Under the pieces are notes generated by a model, which saw only the letters and a program-made list of their open reading frames with translations, was not told where the DNA came from and ran no database searches. Source: Diplonema papillatum (taxonomy: Eukaryota > Euglenozoa > Diplonemea > Diplonemida > Diplonemidae). From it: a stretch of 64,000 nucleotides of DNA. Shown here piece by piece: positions 10,339 to 63,604 of this stretch; the stretch's first letter is position 1, and each line of letters opens with the position of its first letter. The stretch lies in assembly GCA_030068145.1 (NCBI GenBank), contig JAPJBO010000002.1, positions 682,001-746,000 on the forward strand, written 5' to 3'. A program made the translations under genes and the position numbers.

Positions 10339-11985
10339 TTTGTAGTTGTATTGTTTTTCTCCCCCTCTATTACCGACAGACTCGCGCCAAATCAGCCGAT
10401 TTTCAACAGTGGAAGCTTTGGCTATGCCGCCCATGTAGCGGAGTCAGCTTGACGCACAAACCGGGCAAGAGGTGGATGAAGATGTTGTCGCAAACCCCGT
10501 CTGATCGGCAGACGGGGTTCCGGGAGGGGGGGCGGGGTTCGTTTGCACAGCTGGAGGCCATATTCTGCTGAATCAGTTTGAAATGGTGTAAGACGTAGCT
10601 AGAGGAGCACAGCAGCACGGGCCCGTGTATTGCTCGTGGTCGCCAGTTCTCGGATACTCGCCGATTCACGACTACCGCTCGGCAACACCCTCAATGCGGG
10701 TAACCCTCGTCAATTTCCATCAGTCTTTCGGCTATGGGGCTTCCCAGTCCGCTCACGACGAGCATATTGATGCTCTGTTTTTTTGAGCTCCGACGATTCC
10801 GTATGGGCGTACTGATTTGTGTCTTTCGACGTGAAGGTTCAACTTCGTGGTGCTTGCGGTAGGTTCGCCCGAGAGCCGCGGTGTTTGTTTGGACGCCGGG
10901 GGGAGGACTAGCCTGTTTGGGGTTAATCTGCTCTCAGTTTCACTGAGGGAGTTGATGCACCACGAAAGTCGATAAGAATTTTGGGTTAGACTGCAAAGAA
11001 TCTGCAGCGATAATCTGCATCGATAAGAGAACTTCACACACCCTTCAGGGTGTGGTTGGTTCAACCAGAAACAGTCAAGTTTTATTATACTATTAAGTGG
11101 ATGGAAGGTGACCTCGCCCAAGCTCGTTTCGCGGCTAGTGATATCAGTTACAAAGACGTGTTCTTACTTCTCCCTTTCTGCATGGCAGTTCTCGACAGAC
11201 AATACGAAGAGCAGAAACTCCCAAACACGTTGTCCGCGTTCTGTTTTGAGTATATCATTCATTGCTGCGAAAAAAGACAGGTGCTTCGTTTTGTTTGTGC
11301 GTGCCGGGTGATCGTTTTCCCACTTGTATTTACCTTGTGTATATTCAGGTAAGGAATCTGATCAACCACCAAAACACGCTGCCTACGTCTTTTTAGCTTG
11401 CACAATACATTGAAGGGCAACCCGCAAGATTGTTAGTATACTATACTATTGTACTAAAAAGGGGCTCGCTCTGACACAATGATTGTCTACAAGTGTGGAG
11501 TGGGTGCCGGTCGACCGGTTTCCCCTGTGTGCGGCTGCCTCAGGCTCGAGATCAAATGAGAAACGGATGCAGAGAACGGCTCACACGAAGACATGCAAGT
11601 ACTACGACTAGACGTCGCCACAGTGAGTGCAAACCAAGCTCGTGTTGGAAATTGCGCTGCTTGCGCATAGTTCCCGCCGGGGTGTTCCCAAGCTCGGGGC
11701 GCATGCTGGATATCTTAGTGATGGGAGCCAAAGCTAAAGGCGGCGAGTAACACGATCTTTGTGCTAGATCGAACGGTGTTCGTTGTCCACTGCAGGAAAC
11801 CGAAAACTCCGGACGCGATCCTCTCCCGCTTACTACTTTGCTTTCTAATTCGCGTGTTTCATCGACCGTCTAGAGGGCAGCTCGCGCATAAACGCAAAGC
11901 ATTCGGTCTCTCTTTTTCATCTATAATCTGACGGAGACGCTCGGCCGCAGCCGAGTTATGTTGTGATTCGTTCAGAACCAAGACG
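10339..11985. other. Intergenic or intronic stretch downstream of the 1427-residue gene
   Basis: No gene is recognisable. It holds a short inverted pair around a CTGATCGGCAG-type hairpin (10497-10518) and a segment at 10785-10840 (TTGAGCTCCGACGATTCC) that recurs diverged near 22600-22680. It also holds a family I repeat at 11300-11440. Confidence 0.4.
11300..11440 (-). repeat. Family I intron repeat, complete copy
   Basis: On the minus strand it runs TACTAACAATCTTGCGGGTT, TTCAATGTATTGTGCAAG, GCTAAAAAGACGTAGGCAGC, GATTCCTTACCTGAATATAC. It is nearly identical to the copy at 49205-49356. TACTAAC matches the classical branch-point sequence. No flanking exon is identified here. Confidence 0.7.
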
Positions 11986-19248: not shown

Positions 19249-19731
19249 AAACAACTCTGGAAGGGTCCCCCCCTGGTGGCTAAGGCAACCGCTTCGATAT
19301 AGCAAATCTCTTTTTGGCTGGTGCGTCCGAGCGCTGATGGTCGGTTTTCGGGAACGTACAACCCGAGAAGCGCTCGGCCCTAGACTTTACCACAGCTGGC
19401 GGACTAGCACTGCAACAAGCTTTCTTCGTTCTTGTCCCGGAAGCACGCGGCAAATAACGTCAGATGGTTTCGCGCTAAGGTTCCTACCACTACCAGGAGG
19501 ACAATAGAACCCAGCAACTCCCATTGGGTGGCACTGGGTGTTGTGCGCGCATGCGTACTCCGGTTTTCAAAGAACTGTTACGCATACACAGCCTGCCCCC
19601 ATGCCGGACAGTGTCCGCCCAAAGTACGACGACGCATCCGCTAAGCAACTACGCACAGGAATGGGCACACGCTGGCGGCGGCCTTTGTTTGTGCGATTCA
19701 AGCTGCATGTGTTCTGGTTACCGTATGCGGG

Positions 19732-21544: not shown

Positions 21545-21640
21545 AAACCCGCATACGGTAAACCGCTGCCAACGTTCTTTTTAGCTGTAACAAATACTGT
21601 CTCCAGGGAAGCAGAAATTGGTTGTCGCAAAGAACTGAAT
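21545..21640 (-). repeat. Family III intron repeat next to a proposed donor
   Basis: On the minus strand it runs GCGACAACCAATTTCTGC, CCCTGGAGACAGTATTTG, GCTAAAAAGAACGTTGGCAG, CGGTTTACC. It begins about 20 bases after the proposed donor CTG|GTATGG at 21655. A near-identical copy lies at 53580-53690. Confidence 0.7.
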
Positions 21641-22699: not shown

Positions 22700-22810
22700 C
22701 GTGCTTTTTTTTTTTTTTGCGATAACCAGTAGTGAGCATATTTGTTACAGCTAAAAAGGAACGTTGGCAGCGGTTTAACCTGAACGCGCACAGGTCAAAA
22801 TCGCACAAAC
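22700..22810 (+). repeat. Family III intron repeat in plus orientation
   Basis: Contains GTTACAGCTAAAAAGGAACG and TTGGCAGCGGTTTAACC followed by GAACGCGCAC. It is the same family as 21545-21640 but inverted relative to all identified genes. Confidence 0.65.
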
Positions 22811-22884
22811 AAAAAGCGACGGAGTAGTAACCTTCGTACAGGCGTTAGTTCTTAAATTTTCTAAGGTCTTCGATCTTCTAACGA

Positions 22885-37742: not shown

Positions 37743-37836
37743 AGGCGGCTGGAAGCGCCGGGGCAGCGCCCGTTTAGAAGGCCCAGACGATGACAAATAC
37801 ACATCAAGCGGGACCTCACCCGCCTGATTTATGTTG

Positions 37837-40080: not shown

Positions 40081-42440
40081 TTCTACCGCTTGGGCCGGTT
40101 TGACTGAGGGATCCTCAAGAGACGTCGCCGTACAGGGGGAAAGCTTAGGCAGGGCACTCTCATGCAGCACAGGGCAAAGCGATGCTGCGAGGGAGCCCTG
40201 GCGAAATTCCGACAAACACCAGTGGTGTTCGGAAGATGGACTACAGGTGGCACGAGAGACGATTGAGAAGGCGAAGACATCACGGCGCGGCGCACGCCAA
40301 GAGGATCATGGGACTGGGAAGCGGGCTGGGGCAGGGAGGCCCTCGTCCAACAGGCCTTCCGCCGTGGCTTCCAAGGGCGCGGCACAAAGAAAAAGTCACA
40401 TGTATGTGAAAGCGCATGGCACGAGGCAAAACTTGTTGCCGGAAACGCTCGTCTTCAGGAGGTCCCGCTCACACCGCCTCCCGAATTCCAAGAGCGCAAC
40501 TGCTTTACCCTTTAATAAAGGGCAACCCTCCGGCAGGCGACGGTGGGTCGGGTAGAGGCAGAAGCTCTGAAACAAGGGCATTGCTTCCGGAATCACCTCG
40601 CGACGCCCTGGCCCGAGGCGATTTCACCATCCCTCCCGGCTGGCGCAAAGCGACTTCTCCGAAGCAAGCACGTCCCTCTCACGGTTGTGTCTTTGATTTC
40701 ATTTCATGCGTGGTTGACCATCATGTTACCAACAGGAGTGGTAGTGATCCTTCCGTCCTCCTGGAGCGCTTCCAGGAGGACCCCCTTTCCTATATTGAGC
40801 ATGGCCCCTTTTCCTGAACTGGGGGGGTCGGCGACGCGCACAGCGCAACCTCCAACGTCCCCGATTTTGACTGAGCTCATAGGGCGCAGTCCTGCCGCTG
40901 TACGCACGTCCACGGCAAAAGTCACAAAGTGTGTGATTGACGTCGAAAATCTGAGAGGTGCGGTGTGGTCGGCGTTGGCGTGTGTTGGATTGGAAATTCC
41001 AAGCACAGTGGCACTCTTAATGAGAGTTGGAAAGATCGTCGTTGTGCGCACTCACTTGGGTGGCTTTGGTGGAAGGCGAGCAGACGGCGATGTGTGTGGG
41101 GCGTCATCGCAACCCCAGGACGACGCGAATGTACACGCCGCATCACCTCTGGCAGCCGGTTCTGCACACAGCCTCGGGCACAGCTGCCCTGCAGAAAACC
41201 GACTGAAAGACGGCCCTGTCAAAGGCCCCTTGTGGCCGCGTCACCTCGACAAGATCCTGCAGGGGTACGACTACGCCAACGGCTGGCTCGACGCCAGCAG
41301 TGGAGAACGCGTGGCTTCCTACGAGGGGGAGATCGCTTCCACTGCTCCGCCATTTGACCACGAAGCGCTCCTGCAGGATTTCCCCGGCCTCCGCATCAAC
41401 ATCAATGCCGGATCCGGTGGGAGGGGACCCCCAACTCCTCTTGTAGGAAGTTGTTGTACGCCTGTCGTGACAGGTCGGGGAACACGAATGCCTTGGACCC
41501 CATGGGGGGGCGATGGATAGTGATCCATTTCCAAAAAGGCGTTAGAAAAGGACCGCTTCGAGGCAGTAAGAGACCCTGTCCTAGAGAGGTAGGGTCGGTC
41601 TTTCCGCCGACAAACAGGATCATGACCTGTTGGCGTTTCTCCCCCTAATGGCGTATGAGCTCGTCACTGGAAAAGAATCGAACGAGACCAACAAAACCCT
41701 GTGGCCACAACTGGAAGCCGCAGTCACAATGTGTGTGACTGACGTCAAAAATCTGAGAGGTACGGCGTTGGCGTGTGTTGGATTGGAATCTGTGCTGACG
41801 TTCATGGGGTTGATTGGCGCAGCCCCTCCGATCCAGCTGCCGTCTGAAATCACGCTCCGGGTGAACTCTTGGCCACGCAACGCGGGGAAAATCTCCGGAA
41901 ACAACCTTTGCAACCTGCGGCCCATGCTGGGTTGTTGCTGAGCTTGCAGCAGAAGAAGGGGGTTGTTACGTGCAACAAAGAAACACTCAGGCGTGATGTT
42001 ACAGTGATGTACAGGTACAAAAATAGAAAGACAAGATGGTCGGGAAGAACCACTGCCAATTATACTGCTCCTTCCGGAAGCAGATGGCTGGTGGCTGGAA
42101 GTGTGCGGACTACGTCCAGCACTCCTGCACCGACATCACACCTCTGGCAGTCAGGTGCATCACCCAGCTGTGGCGTCCGCTATCTTTGGACGGGCATCAC
42201 AAATCCTGCGATCAAGTTCGCTGCAGCACTCAAGCTTACGAAGTTCGCCATGCGAGGTGCCCAAATTTCCGTCAAGATTGCAGCCGTAGCCATTCAGCCC
42301 TACTACTTACCTGTCACGTCCCAGGTGCGAGGAGACAAGCTGGGCCAGTTCACGGCCAGCTGGCACGTCCCAGCGAGGGAAAGGTCCACACCCACACCTT
42401 GCCACCTGCTACGCCTTATGCAGCGTGAAGGTGTCGCGTG
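40081..42440. other. Region with coding-like remnants and an internal direct repeat
   Basis: About 95 bp at 40905-41002 recur at 41703-41792 (AATCTGAGAGGT, TTGGCGTGTGTTGGATTGGA). The plus frame near 41210-41420 (WPRHLDKILQGYDYANGWLD) and 42190-42370 (NPAIKFAAALKLTKFAMRGA) look protein-like. So does the minus frame near 41420-41515 (GSKAFVFPDLSRQAYNNFLQ). No domain is recognised and the frames do not connect. It may be a decayed mobile element. Confidence 0.3.
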
Positions 42441-44569: not shown

Positions 44570-44645
44570 CTTTAGTACTAACGATGTTGCGGGTTGCCCT
44601 TCAATGTATTGTACAGGCTAAAAAGACGTAGGCAGCGTGTTGTGG
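44570..44645 (+). repeat. Family I intron repeat in plus orientation
   Basis: Reads TACTAACGATGTTGCGGG, TTGCCCTTCAATGTATTG, GGCTAAAAAGACGTAGGCAG, CGTGTTG. It is inverted relative to all identified genes. Confidence 0.65.
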
Positions 44646-46544: not shown

Positions 46545-49500
46545 CTACTTCGCCACTTCGACGATGACGTCTTGCTTGAGCGTTGGCGGCTCGAGGATAC
46601 GCTTCGTGTTTCCCTGTTGGTTCTGCAGTCGGCGGCGGGCGGCCTTCGCCATGGTACGCTTCTTCCGCTGAGCGGACTTGACGTGCTTCGGCACCAGTCG
46701 CTGCTTGTTGATGCGCTTCACCTCATCGAACTCACCGAATCTGCGCAGCGTGTGGAAGTATTAAAACGACGAGCACACTGACAAGCACATTCGAACACAA
46801 TGACAAGCATATCTACGAACACACTGTTAAGCACATTCGAACACAATGGCAAGCATATCTACGAACAGACTGTTCAGCACATTCGAACACAGTGACAAGC
46901 TCATTCGCTTTCTCCTTTCCTGTTCGCCTCGCTGGCTGCCAGCTGCGCTCTCCTGCTCCCTTCCCGTCACAGTGTGTGTTGGTCTAGGTTTCGTTGAACG
47001 CAGTGCCTGGGTTTATGTGTATATCCCACTCTCATCCCCGCAGATACAGGAGGAAACTTTTGAGCGCGGTGGCAGCAGAAACTGTCAAAACCGTGACCGC
47101 ATTCGGACGAGGTTTTCCCTGTCAAAACCGTGACCGCATTCGGACGAGGTTTTCCCTGTCAAAACCGTGACCGCATTCGGACGAGGTTTTCCCTGTCAAA
47201 ACCGTGACAGCATTCGGACGGGGTTTTCCCTTCGCAGAACGGAAAACGACAGCTGGCGCAGTGTTCTGCGCAGGCTTTGACACTACGCCACGGCGCTGAG
47301 CAGAACCACTTCACTCGATGGTGTGAGAAGGTCCGAACGCTAAATGTTGTAAGTGCAGACCGTTCGCGGAGCTTCTCGGCGTATTCAAGCTTCTTCTTCT
47401 CTCTGAGATAGAGCTGCTTCAGCGGGGCCGATGCCTGCGACTTCCAAAGGCGCACGTTCATGTCGTCGGAGCCGGAGAGCACGTATGTGTTGTCCAGCGA
47501 CCACAGCACGGACCAAACGTTGCGCATTCGCTTTGTGTGGTACACGTCACGCGACGAACCATTGCAGATGTCCGCCTTCCACAATCTGACGGTACGGTCG
47601 AACGACCCGGATACCAGCTCCTTGCCCGTCGGCGCGAAGTCCACGTCGAGCACCTGATTGGTTTGATTGACTTGCAGTTTATGCTACCGTCAACACCTGA
47701 CGGGTTTTGATTGACTTACAGTTTGCTTGTACTGCTATATTACCGTCAGCACTTGATTGGTTTCGACTGACGCCTGTAGTAAATTTGTTGCATTAGTGTG
47801 ATTCGATTGGTTTCGATAGACGCCTGTATTGTGGACACTTCCCTTCAAATTGGGTTGGATTCGCCTGTGCTGTGGATATTACCTTCGGCACTGAATTCGT
47901 TTGATTAACGTGCAGTTCGTAGTTCGTCTGTGTTGCTGATGTCACTACAACACTGACTCTTGCATACCGGGCCGACGTGGGATACGTAGACGAGCTGCGC
48001 CTTGTCCAGCTTCCGAGCATCGAACTGGTAGATGTTGTGGTCCTCGTTCGCGCAGATGAATGTCATCGGCTCCATTGGGTTCCAGCACACGGCATTCGTC
48101 TTACGGTTGAGGACCACCTTCTGCGCGGCCTGCTCAATGCGCGAGTCGTAGATGCACACCGAACGGTCGGACATCGCGCACAAAATCAAGTCGGGTTCTG
48201 TGTTATTAGAGTGGTTGGGTTATTAAAGGCTCTGTGTTATGAGAGTGGTTGAGGCTCTGTGTTCGGTGAGGTCCTGTGTTCATAGAGTGATTGAGGCTCT
48301 GTTATTAGAACGATTGAGAATCATGTTCACAAGGTGGTTGAGCCTTTGTCGTAGTAGAGGGGTTAAGGCTTACTTGAGGTTCTGTGTTCATAAAGTGGTT
48401 GAGGCTCTGTTATTAGAACGATTGAGAATCATGTTCACAAGGTGGTTGAGGCTTTGTCGTAGTAGAGGGGCTGAGGCTTACTTGAGGTCTGTGTTCACAG
48501 TTAGCGTGGTTGGGGCTTGTTTTCATAATTAGAGCGGTTGCGGCTTGCTTGGGGTTCTGTGTTCATAATTAGAGCGGCTGGGGCTTGCTTGAGTTTCTGT
48601 GTTTATAGAGTGGTTGGGGCTCTGCTATTAGAATGGTTGAGGATCGTGTTGATGACGTGGTTGAGGCTCTGTCGTAGTGCTTGAAGCTTGCTGTTCATAA
48701 TTTGAGCGGTTGGGGCTTGTTTTCATAATTAGAGTGGCTAGGGCTTGTTTGAGGTTCTATGACCGTAGGCTCTGCCTGTAGGCGCTGGGATCGAAGTCTC
48801 ATACTCCGCACGAGCAGATACTTTAGCGTTACTTTGTCAGAATGTTTCTGCTTAAACCCTCCCCCCTTTTGGTTGGAATCTCTTCTGTTTCTTCGCTATT
48901 CCTTAAAAGTCGATAGAACGCATGTAGCTCCGTTCTTATCTCCCAGCTGTTTATTGCGGCAAGCAAAAGGAGAGGCATCCGTCGAAGGAGGGGTACGAAA
49001 AGGGGGCAAACGGTGGGGCCTGCGTTTGCCAGGTTTTGCTTACCCCTCCAACCTCGCTTTTGGCGAGTGGATATGAGGAGATCGCTCAGAAACGTAAGGA
49101 TTTCAACTAGACGCGCCGAAGGCGCTTAAGTAAGCTTGCCAGGTGTGTCTCTCATGTCCACCCCATCCTGGCGAGACCGGTCATAGCCGAAGGCGCACGA
49201 AATTTGTTTGTGCGTGCCGGGTGATCGTTTTCCCACTTGTATTTACCCTGTGTATATTCAGGTAAGGAATTCTGATCAACCACCAAAAACACGCTGCCTA
49301 CGTCTTTTTAGCCTGCACGATACATTGAAGGGGCAGCCCGCAAGATTGTTAGTACATAAATAGCAGCAAAAAGCCGACGGGCGCACCTGACTTGTTGAAG
49401 CGGCACTTCGTGACCTGGTCGATGCCCCAGTTGAACGTCGAGATCGGCCGCTGCCGCGACACGTCCCACAGCTCGAGGTTGCTGCCGGCGGTGACGAACA

Positions 49501-50017
49501 TGCTCTTGACCCAATGGTGGTCGATGCTGCTGAAGGGGCGGTCTCCGAGGTATTCGGCCAGCGGGCGGGCTTCGCCGTGGGCGTCGACTTGGTTGTTGCC
49601 GTCCATGTCCCAAAGGCGCACGGCCTTGTCGGCGGAGCAGGACAGATAAGCGGAGCCGTCGGGTGCTACGACCAGACCGGAAACGGCGCCCCGGTGGGCC
49701 ACTACCTTGTGGCACATCTCGCGCTTCTGGATGTTCCACAGACGGACTTCGCCGTCGAACCCGCCGCTGACGACGTGCGACAGACTGCTCGGGTCCTTCG
49801 CGAGGGCGCACACCGTGTCGATGTGGCCGTCGAACGCGGCCACGAACGGCTTGGCAAACATCCGGTCCAACTTCGCGGCGGTCACCGCCCTCTTGTACTC
49901 GATCTGCCGGTCGAACGGGTGCAGCTTCGGGTCCAAGTTGCGGTGCACGCGCGACACGTCGCTCCCCCGGTCTTTCGTGTGGTCGCGCGACGCGCGCGAC
50001 AAGCATTTGATCTTCAT
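46545..50017 (-). CDS. DCAF13: DCAF13 / Sof1, WD40 ribosome-biogenesis protein (4 exons)
   Basis: Component of the small-subunit processome needed for 18S rRNA maturation in the nucleolus (family knowledge). Proposed exons are 49387-50017, 47968-48197, 47361-47653 and 46545-46740. All borders are GT-AG and phase is kept, giving 449 residues against about 445 in human. It opens MKIKCLSR, with HPFDRQIEYKRA and LDRMFAKPFVAAFDGH close to the human protein. WD40 phrases include SGGFDGEVRLWN, SADKAVRLWD, NAVCWNPMEP, ANEDHNIYQFD, LDVDFAPTGKE and GSDDMNVRLWK. The conserved basic tail is EVKRINKQRLVPKHVKSAQR and then RRTMAKAARRR-like residues across exon 4. The exon 3-4 join restores LRERFGEFDEVKRI. 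Intron 1 (1189 nt) carries a family I repeat about 30 nt after the donor and a tandem array. Introns 2 and 3 also carry tandem repeats. Confidence 0.93.
46775..46906. repeat. Tandem repeat in DCAF13 intron 3
   Basis: Repeated units of about 50 bp built from ACAAGCACATTCGAACACA and ACAAGCATATCTACGAACA. A similar ACAAGCAC-based cluster lies at 50636-50745, upstream of the gene. Confidence 0.8.
47083..47232. repeat. 39-bp tandem repeat in DCAF13 intron 3
   Basis: Four units contain GTCAAAACCGTGACCGCATT and CGGACGAGGTTTTCCCT, nearly identical. Confidence 0.9.
48205..48760. repeat. Degenerate tandem array in DCAF13 intron 1
   Basis: Units of roughly 40-120 bp around GGTTGAGGCTCTGTG, GAACGATTGAGAATCATG and TTCATAATTAGAGCGGTTG. 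Two adjacent 115-bp blocks (48295-48410 and 48410-48525) are nearly identical. Confidence 0.8.
49205..49356 (-). repeat. Family I intron repeat at the start of DCAF13 intron 1
   Basis: The sense strand reads TACTAACAATCTTGCGGGCT, TTCAATGTATCGTGCAGG, GCTAAAAAGACGTAGGCAGC and TTCCTTACCTGAATATACAC. It begins 30 nt after the donor CAG|GTGCGC (49386). It is nearly identical to 11300-11440. Confidence 0.8.
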
Positions 50018-50119
50018 CGCGGCTTACCCCTTCACCCCCCCTCCTCCTCACCCGGTGTGCGCTTGCGCTTCCTTTTCCTTTCTCCCTCTCTCGTTTGGAT
50101 GACCTTCGGGCGGGTGCGT

Positions 50120-50182
50120 GCAATTCGGTAAAGTTAAAGTTAGCTTGAGATTCCGGTGTGTTAGGGTCTCCAGTTGGCATTT
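50120..50182 (-). repeat. Short dispersed element upstream of DCAF13
   Basis: The plus strand reads AAAGTTAAAGTTAGCTTGAG, ATTCCGGTGTGTTAGGGTCT and CCAGTTGGCAT. It belongs to the short-element family listed in the findings; the family is possibly the 3' end of introns. Confidence 0.6.
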
Positions 50183-50251
50183 GCTAAAAATGGGTTCTCT
50201 TGGAGCAAGTAAGGGCTATGGGGGTGTTAGAGTGAAAATTCGCTTGACGAG

Positions 50252-50525
50252 TGCTCGGGTCCTTCGCGAGGGCGCACACCGTGTCGATGTGGCCGTCGAA
50301 CGCGGCCACGAACGGCTTGGCAAACATCCGGTCCAACTTCGCGGCGGTCACCGCCCTCTTGTACTCGATCTGCCGGTCGAACGGGTGCAGCTTCGGGTCC
50401 AAGTTGCGGTGCACGCGCGACACGTCGCTCCCCCGGTCTTTCGTGTGGTCGCGCGACGTGCGCGACAAGCATTTGATCTTCATCGCGGCTTACCCCCTCC
50501 TTCTAACCCGGTGTGCGCTTCCTTT
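50252..50525 (-). repeat. Upstream copy of the DCAF13 leader and first 87 codons
   Basis: Nearly identical to about 49788-50060. In sense direction it keeps the leader, the ATG (50483) and codons up to ALAKDPS, with an Ala-to-Thr change at residue 10. It then runs directly into a short dispersed element (GTCAAGCGAATTTTCACTC). It could be a dead copy or an alternative first exon. Confidence 0.85.
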
Positions 50526-51907
50526 TTAGCGTTATTTTTCTTTCTCCCCCCTCCCGTTCGGATGGCCTTCGGGCGGGTGCGGGCCTGGCGCCGTCGACTG
50601 TTTCGCAAAACCCTTCTCTCCCACGGCATGCAACAAGCACATCGACAAGCACACTGGCGAGCAGACTGACAAGCACGCTGATTGACAAGCACTGAAATGT
50701 GCATCGCCAAGCACGCTGACACACACATTGACAAGCACTGCTAGCTTGTCCGGTCCATACGTCCATGACAGGAATCCGTGTGCATACGGGTCCCCACCCC
50801 GCAGCCAGGCAGACGGAGCAGAAGAAGTGAAGCAAGGGGTAAAAAGAATCGCCGGCGAAAGCAACATGCGCACGCGTGGTGACGGTTTTGTCACACTTTC
50901 ACGACAATGTGAATACTGCCGACGGCCGCGTGCGGCGAAACGAGAAAAGGGACGGGACCTCCCGACCACCCTCTTCACCCAGCTCACCGCACTCGTCCTG
51001 TCGGATTGCTTCGGCACGTCGAAGCGCTGAAGCCCTACGCCGAGCCCAGATTTACATGGGTTGCGTGCCGGCCGAAGCACATCACCGCCTGTCAGACTTT
51101 TACAACAGGGCGGCCTCCTCCTTACAAATGCGGGCGCTTTTCCCGAACAAAGACAATTTCCCTTCAGCAGCGACCGTCGCCTGGCAAGGAGAACGTGGGT
51201 ATGTCTTGGGCGGCACACCAAATTCGTTTGCGCGGCAATACATATAGCTGCGTGCATTTTTTAGAGTTAAAGTTCGCTTGAAATTCCGGGGGTTTTAGGG
51301 TCTCCGGGTGACCGTTCTTCATTACCCGGAACCCGTTTCAAGAAGGAAAAGTAGAAGAGAAAGAAACAACAGCGGCAACTTCACTCAACGGGCCGTTCCA
51401 TTGCTATGCACAGGGTTTCGGCAACTCGTTCGACCGGAGAGGGGACGAGCGAGAAGAAGAAAGAACTCTAAAAGGACTGGTGAATACTGCTCTCGGCGGC
51501 GGGGGCGGTCTCCGTCGCAGCCACCTGTTAGGCAAAAAGCCCGGGCGTGCTCTACAAAGTGGGCCGGTTGGTTGGTGCGGTGGAAACTGAGGGAAGGTGG
51601 CGCCAACTCCAGGGCGGGGGGCCACGCACAAAACAAGAAAGGAGGAACCTCCCCCTGCGAACCCCGACCAGGTCAGACAGCCCGAAACATCGAGTACGTT
51701 TGATGGTTTGCGTCAGAATGCATACAGCACTCTGTGGCAGATTTGGCAGCGGCATTTATATTTTTGTTGGCTTCTTCCACCCCTTCGTTGTCTGCGCGGT
51801 GTCACGTTATGCCGCTTGATGCTGATCAAGCGCTGGAAACCCACGAACCCACGATTCGGTGTGAGCAGAACGATGACTTCCGCTTCCACGATCGGCCCAC
51901 GCTCGAT
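50526..51907. other. Stretch between DCAF13 and the Gln-rich gene, no gene supported
   Basis: Contains the ACAAGCAC-type repeat cluster (50636-50745) and a good copy of the short dispersed element (51262-51312: TTAGAGTTAAAGTTCGCTTG, then TCTCCGGGTGACCG). I see no convincing exon. Confidence 0.35.
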
Positions 51908-52788
51908 GACGGAAGTAGGGTTTGCTGGCGCCTGCAAGCATCTCTCACTTGCGGCATCGGGTACAGGGGGGGCGTACTAGCGCATGACCCACCTGTAGCC
52001 TGCGTCCGAACACGCAACGAGCGGGTTGGCAGGTGGTTGGCACGCACGAGAGTACACGACAGGAGGCAGGTGAGAGGGCCATGTCCAGAGGCCGTCCGGC
52101 CATTTTGGCTCGCGGTGAGGGCGAGCGTGCTGTGGGTGCTCGCTCCAGCCTGCCGAGGGAGGATCGTCTGGATCGCCCGTTTCTCTTTCAACAGCGAGGG
52201 CACGGCTGGACGGCCCCCCTGGAATGCGGAGCATTACTCGGACTCACGGACGGTCGTACTGCGCGAGACTTGTAGGAGCCCGTCCCGGTCATGCCGGCAG
52301 CTAGGTACGGATTTGCAGCCGAGGCTGCGGTGTCACCAGGGGCTGCCCGCGAGAGTACATGGCAGGCGCGGGTGCGTGCGTGGTCGTGCGCGGCGGCGGC
52401 GTGGCCCGACGGCTGCCGCGATGAGTGCGGATGCTTCTGGTCGGGCGGGAGGGGCGACGCGCTCCACGTGGCACTCGATGGCCGAAGTAGGGTTTGCTGG
52501 CGCCTGCATCGCGAGCATGTCTCACTTGCCGGCATCGGGTACAGCCTGGGTCCGAAGAGCGGGTTGGCAGGAAGTGCCATCGAGGGGCACGCACAAGAGT
52601 ACACGTCAAGAGGCAGGTGAGTGGGCCATGTCCAGAGGCCGTCCGGCCATTATGGCTCGCGGTAAGGGCGAGCATGCTTCGGTACTCGCTCCAGCCTGCC
52701 GAGGAAGGATCGTCTAGATCGCCCGTTTCTTTTTCAACAGCAAGCCGACCAGGCACGGCTGGGCAGCCCCCTGGAATGCGGAGCATCA
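51908..52788 (-). repeat. Downstream copies of the terminal exon of the Gln-rich gene
   Basis: Sequence 52247-52483 repeats the last exon's 3' end (ACGGTCGTACTGCGCGAGAC, CATGCCGGCAGCTAGGTACG, GAGTGCGGATGCTTCTGG) with small indels. Two linker segments (51908-52246 and 52484-52788) repeat each other: AGTAGGGTTTGCTGGCGCCT, GGCCGTCCGGCCATT, GAGGATCGTCT. The unit period is about 560 bp. Confidence 0.8.
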
Positions 52789-52804
52789 CTCGGAGATGAA
52801 GGCC

Positions 52805-55762
52805 TCACGGACGGTCGTACTGCGCGAGACTTGCGTATTTGTAGGAGCCCGTCCCGGTCATGCCGGCAGCTAGGTACGGGTTCGCAGCCGGCACAGGAGG
52901 AGGCTGCGGTGTCACCAGGGGCTGCCCGCGAGAGTACATGACAGGCGCGGGTGCGTGTGCGTGGTCGTGCGCGGCGGCGGCGTGGTGCCGCGATGAGTGC
53001 GGATGCTTCTGGTCGGGCGGGAGAGGCGACGCGCTCCACCGGGTCAGTCGACCCAGGATGTCCGACGGCTGCCGGCCGGCTGGGGCTGGGGGGTTGTGCC
53101 CAGCACTGGGTGCGGCGTCGCGCCGCGGCAGCCGGCTGCTGTGGTTGCGGCCGGAGTCCCCCAAGTCTGCACTCGACTGCAAGTCGGCGGTGGCGGTGGT
53201 AGTGGTGGTGCTGGCCAGCGAGAATCCCTTCGACCGGCGCCGCTCGCCGGGCGACATCACCCCGACGACGACCGCGAAGTCCGACGTGGCGCTGCTGCCG
53301 CGCCGCCCCCGCCGGCCCTTCTCAGCGGCGCGGACCTTGCCTTTGTCTCCTCCGCTGCTCCCGTCGTCGTTCCCCCGGCTGCGGCTGTCCTCCGATGCCA
53401 TCGACGACGGTGCATTGTCACCTCCGAGCACCGTCCCTGTGTTACAAGATAGCCGGGGTGATCTGCTTGTGCACGAGAACGAGAAAGAGTCTTAGAATAG
53501 AGCATCTATTTCTGGTATCGGAAAGTAGGCGCGACATGTTTCCGGAGGTGGAAAACATCCGGGCTCCGCCTCAGGTTTTGTTTGTGCGATTAAACCTACA
53601 TGTGTTCTGGTGAACCCGCTGCCATCGTTCCTTTTAGCTGTAACACAAACTGTCTCCAGGGAAGCAGAAATTGGTTGTCGCAAAAAACATTGTACTGTAC
53701 AGAATCAAACGTACAAAACCCCCACGTAGAATGGCTTTGAGGTTTCGTTTGTGCGCGCCGGTTGATCGTTTTCCCGCTGCGTCATTTTCAGGTGAGGAAT
53801 TCTGATCAGCCACCAAACACGCTGCCCAAACACGCTTTTTAGCCACAGCACATGACATTGAAGGGCAACCCGCAAGATTGTTAGTACTAAAAATACGAGC
53901 GAGCGGAAAGCCGAGATACCTTGCAGACTCTTGCTCCTCCTGAACTGCACGGACGCAGTTCGGCAGATCGCCGGCGCAGGCTCGGCCTCGTCTTGCACGG
54001 ACGAGCGGAGCTCTTTCTCGACGTTCTCCAGCAGCACCTGCCGGTCCGTCTTGGCCCGGTCGAGCCCCGGCGCCCAGTGGGAAGGGGGCGCGTCGTCGCG
54101 GACTGGCGACCGCCGGCGCTGCTTCGCGGCCTTCCCGCGGCTGGACGGTTCAGCGCTCGCCTGCTGCTGCTGCTGCTGCCGCCGGCGCTGCTCGTTGAGC
54201 AGCTGGCGGTCGGAGGCGGCGGCGAGCGACCAGCCGGCAGCCTCCGCGGGCGCGGCGGGCGACGGCTGGCTTTGAGGCGAAGGGTTGCTGCCTTCTTGCT
54301 GGCGGTGATGGCGGTATTGTTGGTGCTGTTGTTGTTGATGCTGCTGCTGCTGCTGCGGCTGGCTTTGGAGCGAAGGGTTGCTGCCTTCTTGCTGGCGACG
54401 GTGGGGGTATTGTTGGTGCTGGCGGTGTTGCTGCGGCTGGCTTTGGAGGGAAGGATTGCTGCCTTCTTGCTGGCGTTGTTGGTGTTGCTGCTGCTGCTGG
54501 TGGCGGTGAGGGGAAGGGTTGCCCCCATCTTGCTGGTAGAGGCGGCGTTGGTGGTGCTGCTGCTGCTGCTGCTGCTGCTGCTGCGGCTGCGGCTGCGGCT
54601 GCTGCAGCAGCTGCTGGCGGCCGTGCTGCTGCCCGCGAAGGTCGGCGTCTGCGCGGCCGTCGTGCTGCCAGCACTGCTCTGCCGCCAGCCGCTCCTGCTG
54701 CTCGGCGAGATCCTGCTGGCGCTGCGCCGAAGCGAGCTGCTCCTCTCGCAGCCTCCGCTGCTGCTGCTGGCTGTGCTGGTGCTGGCTGCGCCGGTCGCTG
54801 TGCGCCCCGGACGCTTCTGCCTTGCGGGCCGGCCGGGACTGCTGCTGGCCCGCCTCGCCGAACCTCGGCGGCGACAGCGTCCTGTTGTTGGCGGGCGAGC
54901 CAGCCCGCCGCGGCTCGCCGGTGCCGAACAACCCCAACCCCGCACCCAGGCTGTAGCCCTGCGGCCGGCGAGACCCCCCGGACGGACTCCTGTACGGCGG
55001 GAACCCATCATCGTCGTCGTCGTCTTCCTGCTCGCAAGACAGGCTCCGCGACCGCTGCTGTCGGTCGCTGCGAGTCGGCAAGCCGCCCGCGCCGTGTCGG
55101 GAAGTGCAGTCAGACCCGCCTTCCGTCTGCCGCCCGGCGTAGCTTTGAAGCGTGGGGTGGCCGCCTGGGACGTGCTTCGGGGGAGACGGCGGGGGCGGCT
55201 GGCCTTCGGACCCGAACCGGCTGCGGACAGGCTGCGGGGGGCCCAGCGGCAGCAGGGCGTCCTTCTCCGCTTTCGAGCCGTCGCGCGAGGCGGCGTCGTC
55301 CGCCTTGTCGTCCGGCGCCTTGCCTTCGGCGGGCTGCGAGGAGAAGCCGCGCCGTGCCTGCTGGTCGACCCACGCCCGCATTGTCTTCGTCCGGCCGCGT
55401 TCGTCCCTCCGCTTCCGCTTCGCCCACGCCCTGTACTTGATCACCTCCTTCTCCAACCCGCGCGCCCGCTTCTCCAGCCGCTCGATCAGCGACCCATCGG
55501 TCAGCTGCTTCGTGTATTCCCGGAGCGCAGCGAGCTCCTTCAGCTGCTCCTGATTGGCCGGAGCGCCTCCCCGCACGGAAGGCGGGCGGAGCAATTGGTC
55601 GGTCGACTGCTGCGCACGTTTTTTTTCAGAGTGAGAGGTGGGGTGGATGTTTTTTGTAGGGAAAACTCGGTTTTGCTGAAGGTGTAATTTCGCCCTTTCG
55701 CTACATCGTTTCCCAAAGAGATAATTTGGCGCATCCGCACTGTGTGGTGCTGTTTCGCTCAT
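52805..55762 (-). CDS. Gln-rich disordered protein with N-terminal coiled coil (2 exons)
   Basis: Proposed exons are 53920-55762 and 52805-53436 (donor CAAG|GTATCT, acceptor ACACAG|GGACGG), giving 824 residues in frame. After the start MSETAPHSADAPNYLFGKRC comes a charged helix (about residues 72-145) with DGSLIERLEKRARGLEKEV and RAWAKRKRRDERGRTK, probably a coiled coil or nucleic-acid-binding helix. The middle is Pro/Ser-rich with poly-Asp (EQEDDDDDDGF). Residues about 340-560 are Gln-rich with CAG-type runs and three or four repeats around QEGSNPSLQSQPQQ. Exon 2 adds a Ser/Gly/Thr-rich tail. Function is unknown; a regulatory or RNA-granule-type scaffold would suit the composition. The intron (483 nt) carries a family I and a family III repeat in sense orientation, and both gene ends are partly duplicated next door. 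Confidence 0.65.
53580..53690 (-). repeat. Family III intron repeat, inside the Gln-rich gene intron
   Basis: The sense strand has GCGACAACCAATTTCTGC, CCTGGAGACAGTTTGTGTTA and GGAACGATGGCAGCGGGTTC. It is a close copy of 21545-21640. Confidence 0.75.
53735..53890 (-). repeat. Family I intron repeat, start of the Gln-rich gene intron
   Basis: The sense strand begins TACTAACAATCTTGCGGGTT about 33 nt after the donor GTATCTC. It continues with GGCTAAAAAGCGTG, GGGCAGCGTGTTTGG and TTCCTCACCTG. Its position relative to the donor matches DCAF13 intron 1. Confidence 0.75.
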
Positions 55763-55794
55763 CTTGCGAGCTTATATTTTTGAAACGGCCTTCG

Positions 55795-56030
55795 ACGAAG
55801 CGCCTTGCCTGTTGGTCGACCCACGCCCGCATCGTCTTCGTCCGGCTGCGTTCGTCCCTCCGCTTCCGCTTCGCCCACGCCCGGTACTTGATCACCTCCT
55901 TCTCCAGCCCGCGCCCGCTTCTCCAGCCGCTCGATCAGTGACCCATCGGTCAGCTGCTTCGTGTCTGGCTGGGTCTCTCCGCACGGAAGGCAGGCGGAGC
56001 AATTGGTCGGTCGACTGCTGCGCACGTCAT
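55795..56030 (-). repeat. Upstream copy of part of exon 1 of the Gln-rich gene
   Basis: Corresponds to about 55350-55620 inside the gene (AAGCAGCTGACCGATGGGTC, CGAGCGGCTGGAGAAGCG). It has deletions that break the frame after EKRARA. It ends immediately upstream of the gene's start codon, so it would lie in the 5' UTR or promoter. Confidence 0.8.
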
Positions 56031-56879
56031 TGTTTAGAGTGAAAGTTCGTCGTTGAGAAATCCGGAATTTAAAGCCACGGGTGGCTTCTTTTTGGATGTT
56101 GAGAGAATCCGATTTTTTTAGAGTCTCCGGGCAGTGCTCCCGCTAACCTCACTTTTGGTGAGGAATTCAAAAACCTGTTTGGGCCTTGTTTTTTTTTGGT
56201 GCCCCCCCAATTTTTTTACCCCCGTGTTGTGCAGGTTATTAGCTTCGTTTTTGCCTTGGTTTCCGACCAGCTTTCTTTTGCCGCTCTGAGACCGAGAAGC
56301 TTTTCTCCAGGGAGGGTCCGGGGGGCTTTGCCCTCCGGCGAACGGTACGGTACAGGTGGAGAAAGTTTGCACTTCTCAGTCTGTTTGTCACAATAAACAC
56401 TGCACATTCCTGGAGGCAACAGCCGATTTCAAAATCAATCACCACTCGATACTGTGTGCTGGTAAATCATTGCCACGAGTAGACGCAGACCAGAGATCAC
56501 GTGGAACAAGGCAGTTGTGTCGACTGGGAGAGAATCTGTCAAGTAATCCGGGGCTGCTTCTGATCCTCGACTCTCTCTTTCTCGGTTCCAACTTCTGCCC
56601 GCCAGCCCACGAGACTGTGAGGCAGTGCTTTGGCTACACGATACCACCAACGGGAAAAAGGTGAGGAATTCCTCGTGAGGAATTCCTCACCCTCTCTTTT
56701 CGAGCGTCTTTTTTTGAGGAATTCCTCGCACTTTTTTCGTTAGCGGGAGCACTGTCTCCGGGTGACCTTCGTCGAATAGGTTATTTTCAAGCTAATACGT
56801 AATGGGGGGGTGATTTGAGGGACATGGCTTCTTTCGCATACACGTTATGTGCTTGCTTTGGTAAGCCCAGTTCGTAGCA
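56031..56879. other. Repeat-rich gap, no gene supported
   Basis: Holds fragments of the short dispersed element (56035-56065 and 56755-56775) and GAGGAATTCCT palindromes (56660-56730, GTGAGGAATTCCTCGTGAGG). No exon is recognisable. Downstream exons of the zinc-ribbon gene would be expected here or further left. Confidence 0.35.
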
Positions 56880-57020
56880 ATTGGTGTGTAGGACCCGTAG
56901 GTCCATGTCCTCACCTGATGGTACAGCCGGCATAGGTTTTGGTTGTACGTGTGTGCTATCACTTGTTTTGTTCCTGCCAACGGTCACTTTTTGATAATGA
57001 CAACCGCGGTTGTTATCGTA
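56880..57020 (-). repeat. Family IV dispersed repeat
   Basis: Shares with 62935-63070 the stretches GTGTGCTATCACTTGT, GTCACTTTTTGATAATGAC and AACCGCGGTTGTTA. The last is palindromic. The GGCAGCG core is mutated here (GGCAGGA). Confidence 0.7.
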
Positions 57021-57069
57021 AGAAAACTCTCCTGTGGAGTAGGTGCGCGATTATACGAACAAAAATTAG

Positions 57070-57175
57070 TATGGCGCTTTCTTTTGTGCACTAGCGGAAC
57101 TCACCTGCTTTGGTAAGTTTCATGTAGTACGCTGCCAACTACTAAATTTTAGTACCAACAAGGCATTGTTAACAC
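57070..57175 (-). repeat. Family II intron repeat after the zinc-ribbon exon
   Basis: The sense strand reads TTAACAATGCCTTGTTGG, TACTAAAATTTAGTAG, TTGGCAGCGTACTACATG and CTTACCAAAGCAGGTGAG. It is a close copy of 5780-5860. Confidence 0.7.
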
Positions 57176-57188
57176 AAAGAAAGCACAC

Positions 57189-58898
57189 GTTCGGTTGCCC
57201 GTGCGAATGCCTCCGGTCGACGACGCTGTTGGATTCGCTCCCGGAGCTGTTGTCGCCGAGGAACAGCGTCGTGTCGGAGACGCTCGACAGGTCGTCGGCG
57301 ATGGCGGCCTGCAGCTCGTCGAGGCGAATGGACTGCTCGACGGCGATTTTTGCCTGCGACTCTACGTACCGCCGGAGGGCCTCGATGGCCAGCCGCTGCC
57401 GCTTGATGAGCGCCTGCTGCTCCTCCCGCGAGAGCCCGAGCAAGGCTTCGTCTTCGTCGCCGCCCGCCGCCGGCTCGCCGGCGCCCGGCCCTGCGGCGAG
57501 CGCGAACGGGTTCGTCTTGTCCGCGATGCCCATCTCCCGCTTCAGGAACACCAGCCGCGCCAGCAGCGGCGCCCGGTTCGACACGACCCGCTGCTGGTCG
57601 CCGGTGAACGGCAGCCGGATCCCGCAGCGGGGGCAGAACAGCGCGTCCACGGGGAGGTCCGCGTGCTTGCAGTACGTGCACCGAGCGCCGCCTGCATTCA
57701 CCGGAGAAGCAGCGGACCGCCATGGGTCGCCGACAACAACGCCCCGGCCGGCTGCCGCGGGGGAAAACGGGTTCGTTGAGCTGGTCGGAGACGTCGGCCC
57801 GTCGTCGCTCTTCCGCGGGGACGGCGGCGTGAGCGCGGCAAGCCCTGCGACAGTGCGCCGGGCGCGGCTCCGGGCGCCGGCCGACACGGGGCTCGCCACG
57901 CGCTGCTTCTTCCGCCGGGGCGTCGACCGCTTGCCCTGCTTCGGCGGCGGCGGCGGCGGCGGCGGCGGCGGGTTCGTGGCCTCTGTCTGCACAGTCGTCG
58001 TCGACTCGGCCAGCGGCGACCGCAGCGACAGTTCCCAGGCTGGGTTGTTGTTGGTGGCGGCGGTGGTGGTGGCGTCGTTGTCGTCGTCGTCGGCGGGCGC
58101 TGCGCTGGACCCGATATTCGACGTCGCCTGGCTGCCGCCCAGCGTCGACGATTCCAACGGCGGACTAGGGCTCGGGCTCGACTGGACCGACCCAGAGCTC
58201 GCGGGCTTCGCCTTCGACGGGAAAAATGAAGCCAGCAACCCAAACCTACCACCTCCACCCCCCCCTGTGCTGGCCGCCGGAGACGCAGCCGCCGCCGCGT
58301 CCGCTCGCGGCGGAGGCGGCGGCTGCGACGGGTCGACGAAGGTGCCGACGGACTCTCCCAGGTTCGAGCTCTGCGTGCGGAGCCCGCCGTCCGGCCCCGG
58401 GAGGGTAGGAACGGTGGCGTCGGCGTCGTGGATGGGCAACACGTCGAAGCGGCGGCGCTGCAGGGCGGCTGCGGCCATGCAGAGCACCCTCGTGAAGTTC
58501 GGGACGCTCTCCGGCACCGTCAGCGACCACACCTCGGGCTGCCGGTCGTGCTCGGTCCGGAAGTGGACCAGCACGTCCTGCACCCCGCTTCCCGGAGGGC
58601 TCGCTGCCACCATGCTCACGTTCGTCAGCTCGGCGTTGCGGACGATGGCTCCCTTCGGACCGCACAGCATCAGCTCCCGTATCGTCAGCACCAGGTCCCG
58701 CCTGCCCCTGGGCACCGCGGGCTTCCCCTTCGCCGACACGCTCGCAAGCGCCCGCGACGCGTATTTCAAGTTCGGACTCCCATAGTACTTCGCCAGCTCG
58801 CTCTCCGGCGGCAGACTGACGCTGACCGGGATCGGGTACTCGTCTTCCGCACCCGCCCTGTTCAACGTCAGATCGGAATCTGTTTCTGCTTCCGACAT
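57189..58898 (-). CDS. Zinc-ribbon and coiled-coil protein, 5' exon (570 codons)
   Basis: The start is MSEAETDSDLTLNRAGAEDE at 58898. The exon probably ends at AAC|GTGTGC (57189), because beyond it the frame enters a family II repeat. Residues about 20-165 look folded (RRDLVLTIRELMLCGPKGAI, VWSLTVPESVPNFTRVLCMA), perhaps a PH- or C2-like beta domain. A long Pro/Ser/Ala-rich linker with poly-Pro follows (about 190-400). A CxxC...CxxC zinc ribbon, CTYCKHADLPVDALFCPRCG, is at about 403-422. A helical region follows (about 440-545, LSREEQQALIKRQRLAIEAL) with likely coiled coil. Zinc ribbon plus adjacent helices suggests a scaffold or trafficking adaptor, but no family is recognised. Later exons are not found. 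Confidence 0.6.
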
Positions 58899-60674: not shown

Positions 60675-60821
60675 TGTCAGCTTGGAACTGTTACGAACAA
60701 GAGGAATCCAACTGGTTAATTAAACCACAGCATTTCGCTTCATCACAGCGGTGGCGACATTGACTTCTGCCCAGTGCCCTGAATGTCAACGCTGAGAGAT
60801 CAGGTCAAGCGCGGGTAAACG
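60675..60821 (+). rRNA. Fragment of LSU (28S-type) rRNA, probably a pseudogene piece
   Basis: About 147 bp match a conserved LSU core segment as I remember it: GTCAGCTTGGAACTG, ACAAGAGGAATCCAACTG, GTTAATTAAACCACAGCATT, GACTTCTGCCCAGTGCCCTG, AATGTCAACG and CAAGCGCGGGTAAACG. Similarity ends abruptly at 60821, just where the next bases (from 60825) match the BRICK1-linked repeat. No other rDNA follows. Confidence 0.8.
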
Positions 60822-60824
60822 ACG

Positions 60825-61015
60825 TGCCGAAGGTGAAAAGGCGAACGAAGGACGAACCAACCGTGGCCGAGTCGGTCGCTGCTTCTTCTACCGTCGGACG
60901 CGAAACCTGTCTGCCTCAAGACGCGAAAAAGGAGGCATGTTTTCGCGCCACGAATCACCTCGACGGCTTGCTTGTCTTCGTCTTCGCGGAGGTGAAAAGC
61001 GAAGAGCGAAGCAAT
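60825..61015. repeat. Proximal copy of the BRICK1 3' duplication unit
   Basis: Its left part repeats the BRICK1-like 3' coding end and flank: AAAAGGCGAACGAAGG, CGAACCAACCGT, GCCGAGTCGGTCGCTGCTT (compare 61140-61195). Its right part matches 60290-60450. Confidence 0.8.
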
Positions 61016-62436: not shown

Positions 62437-62640
62437 CCCATCGGTAGCAACGACGGGCGGTGTGTACAAATGGCAGCGACGTAACCAGTGCAAACTGATG
62501 GCTTGCGCCTACTAGGGCATTCTTCATTCAAGGAGAATTATTGCAATCATCGATCCGCATTCACGACGCAAGTTCAAAAGATTTCCCATCCCCTTCACGA
62601 TAGGTGGCCGGAGGAAGGCGCTCAAACTCGTTTTATGCGC
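62437..62640 (-). rRNA. 3'-region fragment of SSU rRNA, inverted
   Basis: The minus strand reads through the SSU 3' domain: ACGAGTTTGAGCGCCTTCC, GGGATGGGAAATCTTTTGAA, GATGATTGCAATAATTCTCC, CCCTAGTAGGCGCAAGCCAT, ATTTGTACACACCGCCCGTC and GTTGCTACCGATGGG. The CCTAGTAGGCGCAAG-CATCAG phrase is like alveolate 18S. Several conserved positions are changed. Similarity stops after CCGATGGG, before the expected 3' terminus. Confidence 0.85.
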
Positions 62641-62934
62641 CAGTGGGCATTTCTTCGCAAGAAAGGGGAGAAGCAAGAAAATCGGGCCCTTTCTAGTGTT
62701 TCGTTCGCGGAGCTGCCACGTTCGGTGCGGGCTACGGGCCCATCTTGCGACAGGAAAAACAAAATGAAGCTAAGTCAACCGGAGCGGCCAACGGGCTTCC
62801 GCCAGCTCGACGCGAATCTGGCGTCGGAGGTGCGGTTTAATGCCGCAGGATCCTTCTTTTTTTACCGCGGACACGGAATGTTGGAGGGAATGAAAGCAAA
62901 CCGCAGCGTTGTCACATCGTCCTAGTTCCAACTT

Positions 62935-63070
62935 TTGATCAGGCACTGCGTGCATGGTGCAGCCGGCGTTTTTGTTTGTGCATATGTGCTATCACCTGTA
63001 TGGTAATTTCCACAGTACGCTGCCAACCGTCACTTTTTGATAATGACAACCGCGGTTGTTACCATAAAAA
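62935..63070 (-). repeat. Family IV dispersed repeat with GGCAGCG core
   Basis: The sense strand has AACAACCGCGGTTGTCATTA, TCAAAAAGTGACGG, TTGGCAGCGTACTGTGG and ACAGGTGATAGCAC. It is a partner of 56880-57020. Confidence 0.7.
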
Positions 63071-63604
63071 AAAAACCCCCCCTCTCTTCCCATCAGCATC
63101 TTCATCATCTTCACTAGTTGTATATCAGCCGCATTTCTTGTTGCCGGGCTCTTCACTATATTTGCAATGGAGTTACCATTGTCATCCAACTGGGCCCAAA
63201 AGGCACCTTCCCCGCGTAGATTGCCACCGATTTAATAAAAGCCGCCTGCAGACCCACTGTTAATCCATTTACTCTGAGACTTGCATGGCTATATTTGAAC
63301 AAGCCAGGATTGAGTTCGGAGTTTTTTTTCCCCAATTATATTCCCGGATCCCCCGATTCCTACCGTCAGAGCTATGTTAAGTGCAGCATAGGCGGTGCAG
63401 AGTAGCGGTGCACTGAGTGCAGAGAGCAGTGCAGTAAAGATGGACGAGCTCGCTCCGAGCTGCAGGAACCCCGCTTCTTTTCATTCTCCAAAACCGGTTC
63501 CTGTGCTTCCCCATAAATACATATCATGCTCAAGACCCAGGGACATTGCGGAGGGAGGCCACGATACTGGAAGTCTCGAAAGGCGCTTGTTCGCACTTCC
63601 CCAT
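63071..63604. other. Stretch without a supported gene
   Basis: Low-complexity CTT/CAT-rich sequence at 63075-63130 and short GTGCAG-type repeats (63385-63435). No exon is recognisable. Confidence 0.35.

Follow-up and report, generated by a model that had tools for sequence, protein, structure and literature searches.

The window, that is the whole stretch of 64,000 nt of the genome of the marine flagellate Diplonema papillatum that was analysed, harbors the DCAF13 gene, a Gln-rich gene, a zinc-ribbon gene and a PP2C coding segment, together with copies of short repeats of four families (I to IV). The initial annotation had placed these families at a series of positions, and all of them were found to carry repeats. 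The copies and one coding remnant are as follows:

3746..3808, minus strand: internal piece of family I (query positions 70-132), with a coding-like segment (2102-3676, minus) ~70 nt downstream of it
5744..5872, minus strand: family II solo repeat; coordinates as matched by the query, which includes flank
11271..11438, minus strand: family I solo repeat, A+B form, ending in GCACCTGTC and a T-run
19684..19720, minus strand: final 37 nt of the family III copy begun at 21559..21634
21559..21634, minus strand: family III, first 76 nt, broken off by an 1838-bp element
22739..22814, plus strand: family III core, stem-loop and tail, antisense to modelled genes
41047..41632, no single strand: YR/RT coding remnants left by a III-type element, at 41047-41402 and 41405-41632, the two oriented oppositely
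44571..44645, plus strand: initial 75 nt of family I, comprising head and core, followed by unrelated sequence
49203..49360, minus strand: family I solo repeat in the DCAF13 intron, sense
53576..53687, minus strand: family III solo repeat, coming after the family I copy 53742..53893 on the same strand
53742..53893, minus strand: diverged family I copy (80%), sense
56937..57025, minus strand: diverged family IV copy (76%), just downstream of the family II copy 57073..57191 on the same strand
57073..57191, minus strand: family II solo repeat, sense
62967..63071, minus strand: family IV solo repeat

Since the pieces at 21559-21634 and 19684-19720 represent one family III copy split by the 1838-bp insert, the window contains 12 copies. 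Most copies had been described as lying on the minus strand, which holds for 10 of the 12, the other two (22739 and 44571) being on the plus strand. The family II copy at 5744..5872, in gene sense, follows the PP2C coding segment (6200-7054, minus) at a distance of ~330 nt, and the head of the family III copy at 22739..22814 resembles, by eye, that of a 65%-identity subfamily.

Four families with a common stem-loop

Patterns of 19-20 bases spanning the core were searched across the genome, with the reversed patterns as control. The family I pattern, which runs through the core, gave 1537 matches (control: 0), followed by family II with 1352 (0), family III with 372 (2) and family IV with 240 (0). 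CGTTGGCAGCG matched 1283 times and its reversed pattern 224 times. The repeats are real and far above chance. GGCAGCG had been described as the core common to the four families; this was borne out, and the sharing goes further, including a stem-loop after the core and a GCACAAACAAA-type tail.

The core supplies the 5' strand of a stem-loop that is conserved as an element GGCA-(stem-loop)-ACAAACAAA; pairs are predicted in families I to IV from G5 to the C ahead of ACAAACAAA. The z-score of the stem-loop was -1.8 for family I and between -3.8 and -5.5 for families II-IV, and a folding-energy shuffle test yielded P values of 0.008 or less for families II, III and IV and 0.064 for family I; the closing helix of family IV was no longer than in shuffles (P 0.324). 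In the long elements described below, the stem-loop occurs twice, directly ahead of the start codon of gag and a second time close to the 3' end; it therefore probably functions in the element's RNA, in translation, reverse transcription or packaging. Descent from retrotransposon ends would account for a core common to four families. Two other readings of the core were rejected: hairpin arms as recombinase crossover, because loop length varies and the insertion junctions lie outside the hairpin, and a likeness to the spliced leader, which covers ~6 nt and is missing from families I and II.

Long elements carrying the repeats at both ends

For each of the four lineages a long copy was found: a ~4 kb element with gag-like, YR and RT regions, bounded on either side by one and the same repeat. 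Families I, II and IV were each represented by one long element with the family's own repeat at both ends, and the RT frame of the family I element is broken. In family III, core, stem-loop and tail were present at both ends in 9/9 elements examined, of which two (L069, L070) were read whole and seven more, from other subfamilies, at their ends only; one element (C333) has a 5' repeat with a shortened head.

The ORF order is gag, YR, RT/RH, with YR ahead of RT in all four lineages. RT was matched in each lineage (RVT_1 match of 1.1e-8 for family III), many near-identical RT places were found, and the RNase H part was recognized by eye only, no RNase H model having matched. Compared with family III, the YRs of families I, II and IV show 36-40% identity, the RT matches 32-42% and the gag matches 27-30%. 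The YR residues R116, K144, R208, H230 and Y239 (P0006) are invariant in seven sequences of the four lineages, and the YRs of families II and IV are without the H of HxxR. The phrog_1 integrase profile matched four of five YRs (1.4e-5 to 1.2e-3), the YR of family I being the miss, and the match to Pfam Phage_integrase stayed below the curated cut-off. AlphaFold lent no support to a YR fold (pLDDT 47), a PDB search with one YR returned two spurious matches only, and one with a YR profile returned antibody noise only. Judged from sequence, a putative tyrosine recombinase is present in place of a DDE integrase.

A split plan, A1-ORFs-B1-A2-B2, was found in the long elements of family I (L086) and family II (L087), with B1-TTTTT-A2 as the inner junction in family I; most copies would thus be solo A or A-B repeats. 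The elements of families III and IV have A1, A2 and a B1-like stretch with no clear B2 in the copies seen, so that a simple A-B scheme is not valid for all lineages.

The order gag, YR, RT/RH is also that of VIPER. According to PMC6681497, VIPER/TATE elements of kinetoplastids have gag-like, YR and RT/RH ORFs and split repeats (A1 and B1-A2-B2), and SIRE, an abundant short element of Trypanosoma cruzi, is A2-B2. The Diplonema elements are alike in their ORFs, split repeats and euglenozoan host, and their abundant short A2-B2-type solo repeats recall SIRE (PMC6681497), a likeness in the layout of ORFs and repeats. Protein searches returned Diplonema and unnamed proteins only, with no relative named VIPER/TATE, and an RT profile search unnamed proteins only. 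In contrast to VIPER/TATE, the host here is a diplonemid, four lineages are present with the stem-loop core in all four, insertion is into T-runs and copies lie in cis-spliced introns. Ngaro of Cafeteria burkhardae, as described in PMC8547959, has the structure A1-[ORFs]-B1A2B2 together with scattered isolated AB repeats, likened to solo LTRs by its authors. The repeat plan, solo AB repeats and several element types per host are common to both systems, but in Ngaro RT comes before YR (ORF2 RT/RH, ORF3 YR; PMC8547959). The order gag, RT, YR expected of Ngaro is absent, YR preceding RT in all four Diplonema lineages.

We consider it very probable (about 0.87) that each of families I to IV is the terminal direct repeat (A, or A+B) of one of four lineages of VIPER-like YR retrotransposons, whose activity left behind or moved nearly all copies as solo repeats.

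Insertion into T-runs

The site of one copy (L036) was found empty in another locus (L048), which has a plain T-run at this position (GGGTC-TTTTTT-GTTGAAC); among the matches listed, additional loci that align with L018 likewise have this site unoccupied. Insertion into a T-run is thus documented at this one site. Solo copies of family I are mostly A+B between T-runs. The recombinase would exchange strands inside a T-run common to a circular intermediate and the target, and T-runs would therefore flank the insertion at either end. If T-A1 recombined with the inner T-A2, the coding part would be lost and A2-B2 would remain; alternatively, A-B units may be mobilized in trans, as in SIRE. Introns are one landing place among several. 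T-runs a little past donors are hit repeatedly, and copies in sense persist best.

Repeats, introns and alternative origins

Copies had been reported to start 10-35 nt past the donor, in gene sense, in several genes of the window. The DCAF13 intron measures 1189 nt, from a donor GT at 49386 to an acceptor AG ending at 48198; in it the 158-nt copy indeed begins 26 nt after the donor, and the junction was proved by an alignment across it to DCAF13 in PDB. The donors of the Gln-rich and zinc-ribbon genes are plausible by a coding-segment model based on generic amino-acid composition and position frequencies, with the donor itself judged by eye only; the copy at 53742..53893 lies 88 nt past the modelled coding segment of the former and that at 57073..57191 25 nt past that of the latter. 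The donor proposed at the '21.7-kb exon' was not confirmed, as the first part of the copy concerned (taken to be that at 21634) is overlapped by a coding-like segment. Elsewhere, some copies start 9-37 nt past a donor, and a myosin intron of 617 nt, proved by homology, contains two sense copies.

One hundred loci were scanned and 87 were kept after flank duplicates were dropped; they include L009-L038, chosen as best BLAST matches and not at random (L009 lies in the window), 20 family II plus-strand entries taken without regard to context (L088-L107) and 12 family I loci in list order with one close neighbour skipped (L108-L119). The nearest coding segment was in sense in 27 of the 35 loci having one, or in 26/34 by a stricter count in which L019 and L020, the same insertion, are merged. 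Neighbouring copies 5-20 kb apart were on the same strand in 40 of 50 cases (37/47 without the family III array on C20), with weaker agreement at other distances (13/18, 35/59, 32/49 and 22/42), all among the matches listed, 259 points on early contigs (100 I, 100 II, 35 III, 24 IV). In the window, with copies masked, T-runs of at least 6 are commoner in antisense (41) than in sense (17); the sense bias is therefore not explained by target supply, and a surplus of sense T-runs was rejected as its general cause. Colonization of introns by mobile elements in gene sense is supported.

Introners are short, abundant repeats, some of which lie in introns near the donor with a gene-sense bias, traits that the Diplonema repeats have as well. 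As introners, the repeats would enter exons and be spliced out as new introns via a cryptic donor just upstream, with their right end providing the acceptor. The donor-like motif AGGTRYGY, searched before the left end TTTTWGTRYTAACAAT, occurs 5-35 nt ahead of the left end of families I and II at 46 places genome-wide, against ~12 expected from the motif frequency in the loci (~0.41% per copy, for an estimated 2889 copies), an expectation on which the enrichment depends because the reversed control (0) is uninformative for such a pattern. The T-run is no more than 22 nt away from 30 of the 46 donors, modelled exons end at most 16 nt from the donor at five of the 12 donor-plus-copy sites that were fetched, and family II has a right end, CATACTAAT plus T-run, that resembles a branch point and polypyrimidine tract. 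A local test of 48 copies, a sample too small, found 1 near a donor with 0.4 expected. Moreover, five of the 12 sites show no sign of an upstream exon, coding DNA resumes within ~400 bases after the copy at none of the 12, and the spacer from donor to T-run is 68% pyrimidine, intron-like rather than exon-like. Both proved introns far exceed their copies, whose boundaries differ from those of the introns, and none of the introns examined had the size of an element. Unlike introners, the repeats also lie outside genes and have a retrotransposon parent: two family III copies stand just upstream of apparent start codons, some copies lie inside other repeats, and in 52 of the 87 loci the 1.2-3 kb fetched are devoid of coding segments. 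One literature search found no paper joining introners and Diplonema. Of the initial proposal that the elements create or colonize introns, creation is not supported, and we regard an introner origin as very unlikely.

Very unlikely, too, are independent SINEs or structured-RNA genes that have only the core motif in common with the retrotransposons. These would fit a core that folds as a stem-loop, possible SIRE-like mobilization in trans, and the large excess of solo copies over pairs, as pairs 3.5-4.5 kb apart on the same strand numbered ~1 for family I, 1 for II, 2 for IV and 6 for III (by eye, first 100 listed places). Yet each family has its own long element with the same repeat at both ends, and in 27 of 38 unique family I solo copies the right end consists of the B repeat of the long element followed by a T-run (only 7 of 20 in family II). 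The window contains no tRNA and the copies at 43000-64000 had no Rfam match (E up to 2), on which grounds a tRNA- or 5S-derived SINE was rejected. A TIR element was discarded as the two ends of family I are, by eye, unlike each other, and a Helitron as family I, again by eye, is without typical Helitron ends.

For the Diplonema elements, a recombinase preference for T-runs ~10-35 nt past 5' splice sites, in gene sense, is conceivable but doubtful; landing might be linked to splicing, for example through single-stranded or R-loop DNA trailing the transcription and splicing machinery. As YR exchange would regenerate the T-run on both sides, introns would lengthen splice-neutrally, and family II, through its right end (TACTAAT plus T-run), may even provide a branch point and pyrimidine tract.

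The D. papillatum genome consists of 52% repeats, many of no obvious origin, according to PMC10161547. With the retrotransposon origin proposed here, thousands of unnamed Diplonema repeats would gain a parent and a mechanism. Many similar solo repeats together with long elements would make the target rule of a YR retrotransposon readable from empty sites, and repeats near donors in introns can mimic introners without creating introns.

Repeats and their parent elements

The four short-repeat families with a GGCAGCG core (I to IV) were recovered at every place in the window where the initial annotation had put them. The family III copy at 21.5 kb is present but not complete there, its remainder lying at 19.7 kb beyond a 1838-bp element. 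By its inverted ends, CCGTATGCGGGTTTAATAYGAAACGTG, and its TA duplication, this element (19721-21558) resembles a TIR DNA transposon; it is younger than the family III copy, since it was inserted inside it. In the 271-Mb genome, core patterns were counted 1537 (I), 1352 (II), 372 (III) and 240 (IV) times, as against 0, 0, 2 and 0 for reversed controls. The window, on contig C2, further contains:

60711-60856 (+) and 62469-62706 (-), LSU and SSU rRNA fragments
36896-37833, long minisatellite, a largely perfect 22-bp array
30302-31216, long minisatellite, a diverged 16-bp array

Thousands of scattered 28S pieces are reported in the genome (PMC10161547).

Among the matches listed, family III copies were partly paired on the same strand with a spacing of 3.5-3.8 kb. 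Two such pairs were read from end to end, and a gag-like ORF, a tyrosine recombinase (YR) ORF and a reverse transcriptase (RT) ORF were found between the repeats. RT identities, scored for 70 of 2733 candidates, fell into classes of about 100, 98, 86, 80 and 65%. In seven further elements of the 86, 80 and 65% classes whose ends were examined, both sides carried the III-type core, stem-loop and tail (7/7); the 65% class has a different head on its III-type repeat, and in an element on contig C333 the head of the 5' repeat is shortened. Pairs were also detected for IV, II and I (spacing 3.9-4.5 kb among the matches listed), and one paired place read for each of the three contained homologues of gag, YR and RT, with 36-39% (YR) and 32-42% (RT) identity to the family III proteins. 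As each family has its own gag/YR/RT element, there is one element lineage per family, and the GGCAGCG core is common to all four because their elements share ancestry.

For both an RT protein of this genome and its recombinase, identity to Diplonema papillatum entries reached 100%, and the host is accordingly this diplonemid flagellate. According to the genome paper, repeats make up 52% of the D. papillatum genome, introns too contain transposable elements, and >60 ORFs resemble TATE, MULE and Helitron; the terms 'DIRS' and 'tyrosine recombinase' are both absent from its main text (PMC10161547). A literature search for diplonemid retrotransposons with tyrosine recombinase turned up one paper, which concerns a cryptomonad.

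Split repeats and the core stem-loop

In one family I element the left end reads T-run - A1 and the right end B1 - TTTTT - A2 - B2 - TTTTT, where A and B denote the parts of split terminal direct repeats, and one family II element follows the identical plan. VIPER, Ngaro and PAT-like elements have the same split direct repeat plan, and SIRE, a short T. cruzi element, corresponds to A2-B2 (PMC6681497). Solo copies of family I, which lack the coding part, are mostly A+B: by a strict pattern, B was followed by a T-run in 27 of 38 unique copies and a left T-run was present in 26 of 38. Isolated AB repeats have likewise been reported in Cafeteria (PMC8547959). Solo copies of family II are mixed, with B and a T-run in 7/20 and the A tail as the end of others. 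The III and IV elements among the copies seen end with the A tail, and a clear B2 was not found. Similar CCGGAGACCCTAAAAC-type heads occur on III cores (L041, L051, L059) and on II cores (L088, L105), as if heads had been exchanged at the core.

In the predicted fold of all four families, pairing starts with the G that follows GGCA and ends with the C preceding ACAAACAAA, although the stem sequences differ. Compared with shuffles keeping the GCG/CGC ends, fold energy was better for II, III and IV (P 0.008 or less), with a weaker result for I (0.064); in IV the closing helix, judged by length only, was ordinary (P 0.324). The stem-loop lies directly upstream of the gag start codon of the element, and we infer that it acts in the element's RNA.

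Insertion into T-runs

The repeat that surrounds the family I copy at locus L036 also occurs in L048, where it lacks the copy, and additional loci that align with L018 have this site empty too. The empty site reads GGGTC-TTTTTT-GTTGAACGC and the filled one GGGTC-TTTTT-[copy]-TTTTTT-GTTGAACGC, without duplication other than that of the T-run. This is consistent with YR strand exchange within a T-run common to the target and the donor junction; a plain target-site duplication of the T-run would look the same. One family III element exactly adjoins a IV copy, and therefore copies also pile up.

Another common repeat, delimited by eye as T-run-GTATAAGCACCTGC to CTCGAGTAT-T-run in the flanks of L044, L048, L053, L031 and L104, lacks the GGCAGCG core and has T-runs at both ends. 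Copies of I, II and III lie within it or next to it, and it is perhaps a fifth family.

Position and orientation relative to genes

A coding model was based on the PP2C and DCAF13 exons (GC3 0.84) and generic amino-acid composition; shuffled sequence never scored above 13, and all 14 window segments scoring 40 or more lie on the minus strand. That copies are intron-borne and sense-oriented, as initially proposed, was upheld by through-junction alignments: the 1189-nt DCAF13 intron holds one I copy starting 26 nt past the donor, and the 617-nt intron of a myosin gene (L003) holds two, one a fragment, with a further modelled exon and then a III copy in the same gene. Copies were in sense with the nearest coding segment at 27/35 loci (p 0.002; 26/34 without the duplicate L020), and a coding segment was absent at 52/87. 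T-runs of 6 or more in the repeat-masked window are mostly antisense (41 vs 17 sense), though sense copies are preferred. The DCAF13 first-exon region is repeated at 49783-50033 and 50249-50499 (99% identical); such repeated 5' gene ends are described in the genome paper (PMC10161547).

Among the matches listed, adjacent copies 5-20 kb apart shared a strand in 40/50 cases (25/31 if families differ), three of the 40 pairs belonging to one III array on contig C20; the share was weaker at 1-5 kb (13/18), 20-50 kb (35/59), 50-100 kb (32/49) and 100-300 kb (22/42). Four III copies on C20 (L060-L063), about 10-13 kb apart, have nearly alike left and right flanks; they form either a tandemly duplicated segment or a repeat unit.

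Five of 20 listed II copies had a coding segment inside 1.2 kb, all in sense (5/5), and in four of these (L090, L091, L102, L106) only a short stretch, with a GT that by eye resembles a donor, separates the end of the segment from the copy. Among 12 I copies, two (L114, L118) had a coding segment, both in sense. At 46 places genome-wide, AGGTRYGY precedes the left end of I or II by 5-35 nt; the motif frequency in the loci predicts 0.41% of copies, which for 2889 copies would make about 12. GT and T-run are separated by a median of 17 nt, and by 22 nt or less in 30/46. At 12 such donor sites fetched, a modelled exon ended within 16 nt of the donor at five, open frames of about 100 aa occurred at two more, and five gave no exon sign. 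Landing shortly after donors appears to be common. The further proposal that the repeats are introners was not supported: an exon soon after the copy was seen at 0/12 of these sites, and the proved introns measure 1189 and 617 nt. The most economical account is that the repeats are solo copies of the ends of YR retrotransposons and land in T-runs.
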